A program made the position numbers and the translations under genes. Shown here piece after piece: positions 3,098-10,262 of a stretch of 64,000 nucleotides of DNA. Within the stretch, counting starts at the first letter, position 1. The number at the start of each line of letters is the position of its first letter. The notes under the pieces are model-generated. The model saw only the letters and a program-made list of their open reading frames with translations, had not been told where the DNA came from and made no database searches. The stretch comes from Guyparkeria halophila (lineage in GTDB: Bacteria; Pseudomonadota; Gammaproteobacteria; Halothiobacillales; Halothiobacillaceae). The stretch covers positions 1,743,501 to 1,807,500 of the forward strand of contig NZ_CP140153.1 in NCBI RefSeq assembly GCF_034479635.1, in the 5' to 3' direction.

Positions 3098-3577
3098 TCA
3101 CGGGATCTCGAGGTAACGCTTAAAAGGGCCTTCCGGCAATTGAAGGCGCTCTTCAGATAACCACCCCCAAACCGTATCGCGCTCGGCGTTCAACCGCTTT
3201 CGATCATCAAGATCATCCGCGCTGAGAGGATCCCGACTCTCTAGCTTTCGGTTCTTGGACTGAAGGACGCTGGCTTGATCCATGATGTGCTCAACGTAGC
3301 TATGTACGTCGAAGCGGTACAGGAACTGGGACCGGACCTTCTCCTTGATGAGCCGATCATAGTCCTCGAGCCTTGCATCGCCGCGCTCGCACACCGTGGA
3401 CAGGAAATCGGCCGTGGCCCGGTAGAGGGCCATCCGGTCGTCGTGTAGCTCGTGTCGGCGTCGGAGCTCATTCGTTCGCCACTGGGCGTAGGCAATCCAC
3501 GCCACGACACCCGCTATCACCGGCACCAGCGCGGCGGACACGGCCTCCACGATGACGGAAAACGTGTCCAGGCTCAT
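3098..3577 (-). CDS. Hypothetical single-pass membrane protein
   Basis: A 159-residue product with one N-terminal membrane segment (about residues 8-30, VSAALVPVIAGVVAWIAYAQW) followed by a charged, helix-prone cytoplasmic region rich in Arg, Glu and Asp. No family recognised; the layout resembles small DUF4760-like or phage-associated membrane proteins, but that is only an impression. Its ATG overlaps the TGA of the upstream DUF4124 gene by four bases (ATGA at 3574-3577), so the two are almost certainly translated from one message. Confidence 0.6.
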   Translation of the reverse strand: MSLDTFSVIVEAVSAALVPVIAGVVAWIAYAQWRTNELRRRHELHDDRMALYRATADFLSTVCERGDARLEDYDRLIKEKVRSQFLYRFDVHSYVEHIMDQASVLQSKNRKLESRDPLSADDLDDRKRLNAERDTVWGWLSEERLQLPEGPFKRYLEIP

Positions 3578-4095
3578 GGCTGCCAGTCCTGCGACCAGTA
3601 CGAGACTCGCCCATCACGAAAGGTGACGGCGTTCAGGTACGACCGGTAGTTGACTCGCTTCCAGTACAGCCAGCGCTCGCTGCCCGACGTGATGTCCGTC
3701 TCGTCAGGATCACCCCACGAGTCCCGCACGTCGTCCTTTGTCATGCCCTCGATAACACGGTCGTCCATCTTCGCGTCGCGGACCTTGGCCTCCCACTCGT
3801 CGCGGGCCTTCTTGTCCAGCACCGCCTGGCGGCGGCGATCCATATTCGACTGGATCTCGGCTTCGCGCCGGCGATCGTACTCCTCGGCCATCCGCCGCTG
3901 CGCCTCGAGCGGGTCGCCCGCCGAACGCGGCGCCTCGTGCCCCTCGTCATGCAGCTGGACCTGCTCGCTGGGCGCATCCGGACACGGCATGTCGGAAAAG
4001 GTCACCGCCCCGTCAGGTCCAGTGCACTTGTACGCGGCCGCCTGGGCGGCGCCGGTGACGGTGAGAAAGGCGATGGTGAGTGTGGTGCGGAGCAT
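3574..4095 (-). CDS. Secreted DUF4124-domain protein with BamE/SmpA-like tail
   Basis: A 173-residue protein starting at ATG 4093-4095, preceded by an AGGAGG ribosome site seven bases away; a longer frame adds nine residues without a site. Residues 1-19 form a signal peptide cut after AAQA. Then comes the DUF4124 signature YKCTGPDGAVTFSDMPCP (two Cys), a charged helical middle with Arg/Glu repeats, and a C-terminal GMTKDDVRDSWGDPDE segment like the GMSKDEVR motif of BamE/SmpA folds. It is presumably periplasmic; function unknown. First gene of a two-gene unit with the membrane protein at 3098. Confidence 0.75.
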   Translation of the reverse strand: MLRTTLTIAFLTVTGAAQAAAYKCTGPDGAVTFSDMPCPDAPSEQVQLHDEGHEAPRSAGDPLEAQRRMAEEYDRRREAEIQSNMDRRRQAVLDKKARDEWEAKVRDAKMDDRVIEGMTKDDVRDSWGDPDETDITSGSERWLYWKRVNYRSYLNAVTFRDGRVSYWSQDWQP

Positions 4096-4222
4096 GGCGG
4101 CCTCCTTGTGCCATGCGGGCATAACAGCCCGATATTAGTCGTGTCGGCTTCAACAGCCGGGCCTTCATTCTGATAAGAAGGCCCTGGCAAGGCAAATGAC
4201 CGGGCGGCTTGTGGGTTGGACC

Positions 4223-4302
4223 GGTCACAAGATGATTATGTGACCCCTCCCTCCTGGAACAGCTTTACTGACTGGGAGAGTCTGACGATGTGACGTTCAG
4301 AC
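4223..4302. promoter_or_regulatory. Two inverted repeats upstream of the methyltransferase leader
   Basis: GGTCACA (4223-4229) is complementary to TGTGACC (4239-4245) with nine bases between, and GTCTGA (4280-4285) to TCAGAC (4297-4302) with eleven between. The second lies just before the ribosome site and ATG of the 37-residue micro-ORF at 4314. They could be operators or leader hairpins; there is no direct evidence for either. The gap 4096-4615 contains these, two micro-ORFs and a third hairpin. Confidence 0.4.
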
Positions 4303-4313
4303 GGGAGATAAGC

Positions 4314-4427
4314 ATGGCGAAGCACGACTTAAAATCATCTTTTAACCACACGGGCACGCAGGTGTGCGATCTCTGCCGACGGTTAGGACCTTGCGCGTGT
4401 TTCTTGATCGTGGTGATCAACGGATGA
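4314..4427 (+). CDS. Cysteine-rich micro-ORF in the methyltransferase leader (37 aa, putative)
   Basis: ATG at 4314-4316 follows GGGAGA with five bases between, and 37 codons run to TGA at 4425-4427. The peptide has Cys18, Cys21, Cys27 and Cys29 (CxxC then CxC), a possible metal site, and a hydrophobic tail. Its stop overlaps the ATG of another 16-codon frame (ATGA, 4424-4427). Whether it is translated is unknown. The position, directly ahead of an orphan D12 methyltransferase, recalls the small zinc-binding Com protein of phage Mu, which activates translation of mom; there is no clear sequence match to Com. Confidence 0.3.
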   Translation: MAKHDLKSSFNHTGTQVCDLCRRLGPCACFLIVVING

Positions 4428-4461
4428 AACCACTGAAGGGCTTCGAGGCGAGGAGGGATCG

Positions 4462-4551
4462 GTGGGAAACGTAATCTTGAGTGGAAAAGGGCGACCTTGC
4501 ATTGGCTGCCACCAATGCAAGGCCCCTGAACCCACGGGGCACCGCCCGTGA
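4462..4551 (+). CDS. Second cysteine-containing micro-ORF (29 aa, putative)
   Basis: A GTG at 4462-4464 is preceded by AGGAGG (4451-4456), and 29 codons follow to TGA at 4549-4551. The peptide carries Cys13, Cys16 and Cys19 (CIGCHQC). An 11-base-pair hairpin lies inside the frame, so the cysteine pattern may be accidental and the true role of the segment may be RNA structure. Reported because it repeats the theme of the micro-ORF at 4314; low confidence as a gene. Confidence 0.2.
   Translation: MGNVILSGKGRPCIGCHQCKAPEPTGHRP
4495..4540 (+). promoter_or_regulatory. Strong leader hairpin ahead of the methyltransferase
   Basis: CCTTGCATTGG (4495-4505) pairs perfectly with CCAATGCAAGG (4512-4522) around a six-base loop, and GCCCC (4522-4526) pairs with GGGGC (4536-4540). 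There is no T-run, so it is not a standard intrinsic terminator. It sits about 75-95 bases upstream of the GTG start of the methyltransferase and could control its expression. Confidence 0.5.
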
Positions 4552-4615
4552 GAGCAGACAAGGCCCTTCCAGCCACTAGCGGCAGAAGGAGCCTATCACG
4601 AAGGAGCTTTCACCG

Positions 4616-5380
4616 GTGGCCAATCCCATCATCCCGTGGATGGGCGGCAAACGTCGCCTTGCCCGTCGAATCATCCCCCTCATCCCGTCCCACGAATGTT
4701 ACGTCGAGCCCTTCGCAGGTGCCGGCGCAATCTTCTTTCGCAAAGACCCAAGCAGGGTCGAAGTCCTTAACGATGTCGACGCCGACCTGGTCAATCTCTA
4801 CCGCGTGGTGCAGCACCACCTCGAGGAGTTCGTTCGTCAGTTCAAGTGGGCATTGGTCTCGCGCCAGTCATTCCTCTGGAACCAGCACGCTGACCCAGAC
4901 GGCCTGACGGATATCCAACGGGCGGCTCGTTTCTACTACCTCCAAAAGCTAACCTTTGGTGCCAAGCCGACCGGACGGACCTTCGGTGTCTCCACAACAA
5001 CGCCACCGCGCCTGAACTTGTTGCGTATGGAGGAGGATCTCAGCGAAGCCCACCTGCGACTGTCACGCGTGGTTGTTGAACGCCTGGATTGGTTGGAGTG
5101 CATGCGTCGTTACGACCGCCCCAGCACGTTCTTTTACTGCGACCCTCCATACTGGGAGACCGCCGGTTACGGCAAATCCAAAGACCTGAATCTCGACCAC
5201 TACGAGGAGCTGGCCAAGCAGGCCCGAGACGGCAAGGCCAAGGTGATGGTCAGCATCAACGATCACCCCGATATCCGGGAGGTTTTCCGCGGCTTCGACA
5301 TGACCGAACTGGACATCAGCTATACCGTCGGAGGCAAACGCAAAGCAGCAAAAGAACTGCTCATTCGTTCATGGCATTAA
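4616..5380 (+). CDS. D12-class DNA N6-adenine methyltransferase (orphan, phage type)
   Basis: The 254-residue protein begins ANPIIPWMGGKRRLARRI, the usual start of Dam/DpnM (D12) adenine methyltransferases. The SAM-binding motif I is YVEPFAGAGAIFF (about residues 29-41) and the catalytic motif IV is DPPYW (about 176-180). It transfers methyl groups to adenine N6 in DNA. The GTG start at 4616 follows AAGGAG nine bases upstream; it lies inside the palindrome CACCGGTG. No restriction enzyme gene is adjacent, so it is orphan, like the prophage enzymes that follow Com-type genes. It is the only plus-strand gene within the duplicated-repeat interval, which suggests separate acquisition. Confidence 0.9.
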   Translation: MANPIIPWMGGKRRLARRIIPLIPSHECYVEPFAGAGAIFFRKDPSRVEVLNDVDADLVNLYRVVQHHLEEFVRQFKWALVSRQSFLWNQHADPDGLTDIQRAARFYYLQKLTFGAKPTGRTFGVSTTTPPRLNLLRMEEDLSEAHLRLSRVVVERLDWLECMRRYDRPSTFFYCDPPYWETAGYGKSKDLNLDHYEELAKQARDGKAKVMVSINDHPDIREVFRGFDMTELDISYTVGGKRKAAKELLIRSWH

Positions 5381-5435
5381 GCCTTCACGAAGCGCGCACG
5401 TTAATCCGCAAATCTGCGCAAACTATCGCGCCGCT

Positions 5436-5603
5436 TTACACTTCCGCCCAGCAGAGCACCCCCTGCACGACATAGACCGTCAGGGGCGAGAGCTCCAAAG
5501 CCGACTGAAGAATCTTGTCGATGAGTTCACCCGTGCGCGGTTCAAAGGAGCCGAAAAGTATAGCTATCGCGCCCGAGACCGCGCGGACGTCGATCAACGC
5601 CAT
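5436..5603 (-). pseudogene. 5' fragment of the DedA gene, duplicated
   Basis: From ATG at 5603 the frame reads ALIDVRAVSGAIAILFGSF and continues into LIDKILQSALELSPL...VLCWAE, matching the start of the DedA gene at the left edge, and then stops (Val-stop) where homology ends near 5443. Only the first roughly 50 codons are present, so no functional protein is expected. It preserves the frame that the left-edge copy seems to have lost. Confidence 0.75.
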
Positions 5604-5985
5604 GACGCGAACAGGGACTGGTCGCCAGCCGACTGCCTGTTCGGACACTCGCCGGTCCGACTTAGTTCTCTCATAGCCGACGAACAGCCGACGGGTCGAA
5701 CAGGCACTTAAGGACGAGGAACTGCACCGAGATACGCGACAGTCCGAGAGCTTGGCCGTTGGGAGCTAGGCGTTCGTCGAAGGGGGTTCAGGCGCCACTC
5801 GGGACCTGGGCGCAGGCGAGACGTTGTGAAAGACGCGGGCGATGCGGCCTGCCTGCGCAAGTGGCCTGCCGCTTGTATCGCCAATTTCAGGCCCGAAACG
5901 TGGCTCTAAAGCCCAATTAGTTGGGCTGCGCGGGGAAGCCTTGCCAACAATCCGTGGCTTAACTTAGGTGCGACCCCGCCTAAAG
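5443..5985 (-). repeat. Long direct repeat, copy 2 (includes type-1 repeat copy D)
   Basis: Same orientation and order as 442-985. It begins at TCCGCCCAGCAGAGCACC and ends at GGTGCGACCCC (5967-5977), eight bases before the end-proximal region of the NERD gene. A small hairpin GCCCAA/TTGGGC occurs within the type-1 part. It fills most of the 612-base gap 5381-5992; no intact gene is seen in it. Confidence 0.85.
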
Positions 5986-10065: not shown

Positions 10066-10262
10066 CCCCCCCTTCGCCCTTGCCGAGCGGCCGGGGTGCC
10101 GCAGGGTCGGGGCGGCATGGACGCCGCCCCGAGGTTCGCCGCGACAGGACGTCGCGGAGGACCGACCCGTCCGCGGCACCCCGGACGGGAGGGAAGCCTG
10201 CAGGGCCAAGGCGAGGGGTGTACTTCTCTTTGGCTCACTCTCATGGAAAGCACAAGCAAGTG
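10066..10262. repeat. Type-2 structured repeat, copy 2
   Basis: It starts about 20 bases after the stop of the PD-(D/E)XK gene. All main stems of copy 1 are kept: CCCTTCGCCCTTG (10070-10082) with CAAGGCGAGGGG (10207-10218), GGGGTGCCGC with GCGGCACCCC, GGGTC with GACCC, and CGCGAC/GTCGCG. The first inner hairpin is now GGGGCGGC/GCCGCCCC, changed on both arms relative to copy 1. The tail hairpin is degenerate. It fills the gap to the FRG gene. Confidence 0.7.

Follow-up and report, generated by a model that had tools for sequence, protein, structure and literature searches.

In riboswitch-type leaders, the helix that closes a junction competes with an expression platform, and the D12-methyl RNA motif is, by its name, an RNA preceding D12 methyltransferases. 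Another described system close to the present locus is the mom gene of phage Mu, a late DNA-modification gene reported to have its start shut by an RNA structure that lies upstream (PMC6483171). M.EcoGII is a prophage-encoded, non-specific adenine methyltransferase of the beta class. Its clade is reported to stem mainly from prophages of enterobacteria (PMC11551740), and the enzyme is described as silent except during phage development, with over-methylation described as potentially lethal (PMC7736820); for M.EcoGII homologues in two STEC strains, no motif is reported as detected (PMC6602927).

Here, we describe the leader of a methyltransferase gene in a 64,000-nucleotide stretch of the Guyparkeria halophila genome (hereafter the window), for which a first-pass annotation had proposed Com-mom-like control by cysteine-containing micro-ORFs. 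We consider it probable that positions 4478-4608 on the plus strand are instead a widespread and apparently undescribed cis-acting phage RNA, namely a switch with two folds that would control translation of the next gene, either a DNA methyltransferase or the com that precedes it.

The gene in question (4616-5380, plus strand) encodes a protein of 254 amino acids with a match to PF02086 (E 9e-27, 94.8 bits versus a cut-off of 22) and, in a profile search of PHROGs, to phrog_56. From its sequence, the product is a phage-type D12 class adenine methyltransferase of the dam group, and the first-pass call of an adenine methyltransferase with a GTG start (at 4616) was borne out, although the score against the curated Dam family TIGR00571 stayed below its cut-off (108.6 versus 114.85 bits). 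Among the phage matches, the best are those of VP882 (65% identity), B3 (62%), and phiHAP-1 (62%). A second copy is present in the same genome (locus L005, hereafter the paralog), and the two proteins are 96% identical; when ten other genomes of the genus were searched for the methyltransferase, nine had no match and one had a weak match. Identity between the window and the paralog is 62% over 4123-4313, 75% in the first small ORF of the leader (ORF1), 92% over 4478-4608, and 92% in dam; at the level of sequence, the RNA region is hence preserved to the same degree as the dam gene. Also, we noticed by eye that the divergent gene pair beside dam (3098-4122), encoding a protein of 159 amino acids with no Pfam match and a DUF4124 protein of 182 amino acids, recurs beside the second copy (L005 3620-4620), and the whole module of dam and its divergent neighbours seems, from these sequences, to have been duplicated. 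In the ORF list, the translations at 434-711 and 5436-5707 are near-identical, as if a dispersed repeat flanked the region. A promoter scan of 4100-5500 found none.

The micro-ORFs noted in the first-pass annotation are indeed there. ORF1 (4314-4427, plus strand, 37 codons) is preceded by GGGAGAT as a ribosome site and holds CDLCRRLGPCAC, that is, the claimed CxxC-x5-CxC pattern. Its frame, start, and stop are preserved in the paralog and its pN/pS between the two copies is low (0.31, versus 1.02 and 2.33 in the shifted frames; differences at codon positions 1/2/3 of 9/5/14), so that ORF1 is probably coding and translated, on the small number of 28 differences. In the paralog, however, Val takes the place of the leading Cys in the CxxC; no relative of ORF1 was found in 186 loci apart from the two copies, and a reading with one base dropped gave no relative outside them below E 0.6. 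The ATG of a 16-codon ORF (4424-4474, plus strand) overlaps the ORF1 stop (ATGA), and this ORF ends 3 nt before the RNA element and in the paralog continues in another frame. The 29-codon ORF (4462-4551, plus strand) carries CxxCxxC (CIGCHQC) as had been claimed; nonetheless, it is broken in the paralog by an in-frame stop, with two of the three Cys changed, and sits on a conserved RNA helix (P2, below), and it is therefore judged, from sequence, a by-product of that helix. The annotation had itself stated that these peptides are not recognisable Com homologues, which agrees with our finding no Com match for the 37- and 29-codon peptides in Pfam or PHROGs. PF10122 also had no match in the genome, in a weak search that was equally silent in all 14 controls. 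A Com frame is absent from both copies of the locus, and a frame running into dam, considered as the decayed end of Com, was rejected as being merely overlap with the dam coding sequence. Conservation of the micro-ORFs in homologous loci, on which the proposal depended, was not found: those loci lack them, and the Cys residues are not kept even in the paralog. The two small peptides are thus probably not the regulator. As to the two inverted repeats claimed upstream, one was recovered (4223-4237/4333-4347, 87% complementary) and the second was not confirmed by the repeat tool; the 62% identity of 4123-4313 to the paralog makes the repeat there not evidently conserved.

For comparison of leaders, we collected the best 80 matches each from genome contigs and viral contigs together with the copies in the own genome and named phages. 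This gave 165 leaders (at least 350 bases upstream), composed of 160 contig loci, 3 named phages, the window, and the paralog, and 142 of them were unique. A recognisable Com frame was present in 58 of the 142 and absent from 84; in phage B3, Com is annotated. Since the leaders with no Com resemble each other just before dam, an RNA element was searched for. Thirty of these leaders were aligned with MAFFT, and helices were named by eye in this alignment, which was not fitted to any model. Pairs changed on both sides numbered 20 of 29, and the covariation score was 0.340, compared with 0.157 (sd 0.011) for shuffles and never above 0.134 for slid versions; the helix P1 was 95% paired with four of its six pairs changed on both sides. 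One of the five covariation controls was flat, namely that on further pair types, where 171 of 500 shuffles scored as high.

A covariance model built from those 30 leaders, the window being excluded (R1), scored 51.3 bits at window 4478-4608 (E 3.7e-11 for a search of 721,024 bases, model E-values being rough) and the same with the filters off; the score at the paralog was 49.3 bits. It matched 153 of the 165 sources (79/85 and 74/80), or 123 of 135 when the 30 model-building sources are set aside, L060 and L183 being partial matches. The same 12 sources were missed by R1 and by a second model made from 77 sequences (R2), and among them L146 has no upstream sequence and L093 only 334 bases.

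As modelled, the element is a three-way-junction RNA of about 130 nt plus the hairpin P4, ending just before the methyltransferase start. All of its parts lie on the plus strand and were placed from the pairing list. Strand A (4487-4492) is the 5' side of P1, supported by covariation, and P2 (4495-4522) pairs 4495-4505 with 4512-4522 around a loop at 4506-4511; the perfect 11-bp hairpin of the first-pass annotation is this helix, and hence part of a larger RNA. P3 (4533-4550; 4533-4538 with 4545-4550), which was among the helices of the covariation test, is followed by the junction, and strand D (4548-4555), the 3' part of P3 and this following junction, is complementary to 4606-4613 by eight pairs, one of them G-U. 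Strand B (4563-4569) pairs with A through 4563-4568 and can pair through 4565-4569 with its alternative partner, strand C (4585-4589), as considered in the B:C test below. The core of P4 (4572-4583; 4572-4574 with 4581-4583) is supported by the model match, and the ribosome-binding region (GAAGGAG and spacer, 4600-4615) includes the partner of D. In the paralog, pair 4498/4519 of P2 is changed on both sides and two further P2 pairs turn into C.A, while a single-base difference in strand C would likewise give C.A. The folding energy of 4478-4615 (z -5.63, 0 of 200 shuffles as good) argues against a chance origin of the hairpin region.

On the window and 29 loci (16 + 8 + 5), the element reached no gathering score of Rfam 15, and the matches to it on the minus strand, symR and P26, were weak and below threshold. 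Such a leader was not described in the literature searched, which consisted of titles and the beginnings of abstracts with most subscription papers outside it; a search by term returned no methyltransferase passage in the portions covered of the RNA-motif papers, and the name of the D12-methyl motif returned nothing. The element is apparently new with respect to Rfam 15 and this literature, and an earlier description elsewhere is possible; with the D12-methyl motif, judged by the name of the latter, it shares a place before D12 methyltransferases.

The position of the element is regular. Among 138 loci, it stands 141-204 nt upstream of dam, i.e., before com, in the 56 Com loci; in the other 82, which include duplicates of Com loci, it stands 1-36 nt before dam in 73, at 85-97 nt in three, and at 158-198 nt in six. 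As far as sequence tells, the element precedes dam directly, or com in those loci that have a genuine Com ahead of dam. R2 detected it in KS9, B3, VP882, MuM16-1, phiHAP-1, phiSHP3, Mae-JY22, PhiKM, AM106, and S1 and did not detect it in Bacillus phage ZY1; SfV, PY54, and VHML also carry it (47.8, 31.9, and 34.9 bits). The gene that comes after dam in the Shewanella phage MuM16-1 (L206 1937-2113) is annotated as encoding a C4-type Zn-ribbon nucleic acid-binding protein, whereas Com of other phages stands before dam.

Scanning with R2 gave 13 hits in 11 of the 369 genomes of the class and 23 hits in 15 of the 398 genomes of the phylum, 31 hits being distinct. A DNA methyltransferase, of one of three kinds, follows next and in the same orientation after 29 of the 31: 26 are of the D12 type, the window and the paralog counted (25 by tblastn, and L223, which lies at the end of a contig, from its first codons), and three match PF01555 (L197, L220, and L224). 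At L222 and L226, no methyltransferase lies downstream of the element; L226 adjoins an apparent transposase, and both may be relics. The L197 enzyme (103-1488) is ParB-like by reading of its ORF, though PF01555 by domain search, and its place behind the element is possibly a recent swap. None of 16 loci of its viral relatives had the element, so the association with a ParB-like enzyme is limited to L197. For the PF01555 family of L224, on the other hand, 79 of the best 80 viral-contig loci had the element (43-61 bits), in a set that is heavy in E. coli and contains 32 unique sequences; the eightieth (L281), truncated where its contig ends, scored 17 bits. Mom loci had the element in none of the 12 searched among 32.

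Element DNA from an SfV-type prophage matched 2,672 of 5,426 complete E. coli genomes at 3,961 places, and a stricter search with the methyltransferase DNA and leader matched 1,247 genomes. No annotated feature lay under the element among the 40 matches listed. In all five E. coli places examined, the element begins 11-12 nt after an ORF of 64-65 amino acids and is followed, after about 10 nt, by a gene named as DNA-methyltransferase, and an antitermination protein is upstream in four of the five. This small ORF (L361 1092-1289, L366 657-851), which is also in SfV, is conserved and belongs to phrog_331. Judged from these sequences, one element serves unrelated types of enzyme and travels between unrelated phages.

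We then turn to the strands that can pair in more than one way. In the 76 loci other than the paralog of an alignment fitted to the model (A4; A5-A7 were fitted likewise), 69 of which have a usable start, strands of the same locus were compared with permuted ones, and the counts out of 2000 given below are permutation counts, not phylogenetic tests or p-values. The A:B duplex was more stable than permuted (-8.21 versus -4.32 kcal/mol, n=76, 0/2000), and so was B:C (-6.93 versus -6.02 kcal/mol, n=76, 0/2000). Also, D paired with the start region at -11.39 as compared with -8.35 permuted (n=69, 0/2000); the signal was -12.32 versus -8.64 in the 39 loci with no Com and weaker in the 30 with Com (-10.19 versus -8.79, 1/2000). 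Segments A, B, E, and P2 were flat against the start region, and relatedness alone is therefore not the source of the D signal; for strand B, considered as the strand closing the start, this absence of signal led to its rejection. In 25 representatives with less than 60% identity, the longest D helix was 6.20 pairs versus 5.01 (0/2000). A set outside the models (28 of 30 loci) gave -12.27 versus -9.08 for D (0/2000) with A, B, and E flat; this set keeps L190, L195, and L224 with probably wrong starts, and it includes the near-identical L219 and L223 and some loci close to model loci. Variants changed on both sides of D and the start region were found, namely GTGAGCC with GGCTCAC and GTGATCC with GGATCAC, as well as GTGAGAC with GTCTCAC in L197 and, beside the start codon of PF01555-family genes, AGATCA/TGATCT and GGATCA/TGATCC. 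The complementarity of D is weak or absent in some loci (e.g., L181, L068, L090, and L205), and strand C is also partly complementary to the start region (z -5.4), so that the partner in the closed state is not unique.

Because P3 and D:start share a strand, as do A:B and B:C, two exclusive folds are expected. In the OFF fold, D would pair with the ribosome-binding region of the gene that follows, and B would pair with C; in the ON fold, A:B (P1) would close the three-way junction with P2 and P3, and P3 would hold D so as to leave the ribosome-binding region free. Nearest-neighbour folding favours OFF, the mean probability of P1 being 0.04 and the window fold with P1-P3 enforced being 9.5 kcal/mol worse (-63.3 versus -72.8 kcal/mol), and ON would hence need outside help. 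We infer that the folds interconvert and that translation is thereby controlled: OFF would be the default, so that a methyltransferase which could do harm stays quiet, and a factor favouring the junction would turn it ON; such a factor may be a ligand, a protein of phage or host, or the course of folding as the RNA is transcribed. Release by a ribosome at the upstream stop was discarded as the trigger, given that blocking strand A in 68 of the 76 A4 loci, as a mimic of such a ribosome, failed to open the start region (0.464 to 0.455; up in 5 and down in 10).

A static RNA repressor, in which pairing of the start region holds translation low and the junction helices serve stability or another role with no switching, would account for the closed state favoured by folding and for the conserved D pairing; P1, the best covarying helix, nonetheless has no place in the closed fold, and its strand B is also the one used by B:C, and we regard this explanation as unlikely. 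The location of the element also invites a reading as a trans-acting small RNA or an element of mRNA processing or stability: an upstream ORF of at least 70 amino acids stops within -26 to +6 nt of the element start in 103 of 120 loci, and the element is thus intercistronic in many phages. A trans role, however, would not need D to track the start-region sequence of the next gene, which makes this reading quite improbable compared with a translational switch. That the element acts as DNA, whether as a single-stranded hairpin, a cruciform, or a protein or recombination site, would suit its travelling between unrelated phages and the scarcity of G-U pairs (0/180 cells in P1, 2/234 in P2, and 3/148 in P3), but two observations speak for RNA: 29 of the 31 genome hits are oriented alike and sit ahead of a methyltransferase start, and the element is complementary to the start region. 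So do the ends of the P2 loop, which are C.A in 43 of 76 and U.G in 25 of 76, two pairs that are isosteric in RNA geometry, and we hold a DNA element to be highly improbable.

Control by the cysteine micro-ORF peptides after the manner of Com and mom could draw on ORF1, which seems coding, and on the true Com frames between the element and dam in the 58 unique leaders mentioned above. Yet the Cys residues differ between the two copies, ORF1 has no relative among the 186 loci, the small ORF that precedes the element in prophages of E. coli contains one cysteine pair at most and is not Com-like, and the element occurs with and without Com; this explanation is scarcely credible. The likeness to Mu is of another kind, and in this part the first-pass proposal stood: the start in the window is predicted to be shut through pairing with a complementary strand upstream of it (D with 4606-4613), and the group often has Com, with com before the enzyme gene in those 58 of the 142 unique relatives. 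On the other hand, the window locus has no Com frame in either copy, the right end of Mu has no element (best 4.5 bits), and the RNA here is placed ahead of com or immediately ahead of the enzyme gene, also where there is no Com. By analogy, therefore, the comparison with com-mom would hold as a way of working and not as membership, and the idea of a structured leader in control survives apart from the peptides.

The switch reading is also akin to riboswitch-type leaders, in that there is a multi-helix junction, P1 shares a strand with an alternative helix, and the start would be closed in one fold; the alternative helices covary, but the ON fold is disfavoured by folding. It differs in that D also takes part, that the element is intercistronic in many phages, and that a ligand is not known. 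More tentatively, and with some doubt, the element may represent a new class of RNA switch of unrelated phages and methyltransferases, which would sense a specific signal of lytic growth, keep self-methylation off in lysogens, and stand unannotated in about half of the complete E. coli genomes; the signal may then come from a metabolite, from a protein of the phage, or from the methyltransferase itself, and if this is true, it could be a new ligand or regulator. A conserved leader closing the start would supply a mechanism for the silence of prophage methyltransferases and reveal the point of action of the on-signal, and it would explain the silence of M.EcoGII if the PF01555 family includes this enzyme. 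With its spread in E. coli, furthermore, the idea of a switch is directly testable in that organism. Elsewhere in the window, 1604-1672 and 10102-10171 match Rfam TwoAYGGAY just above the gathering score (43.2 and 47.2 against 43), and the ORF translations around both matches are similar, so that the two may be copies of a repeat.
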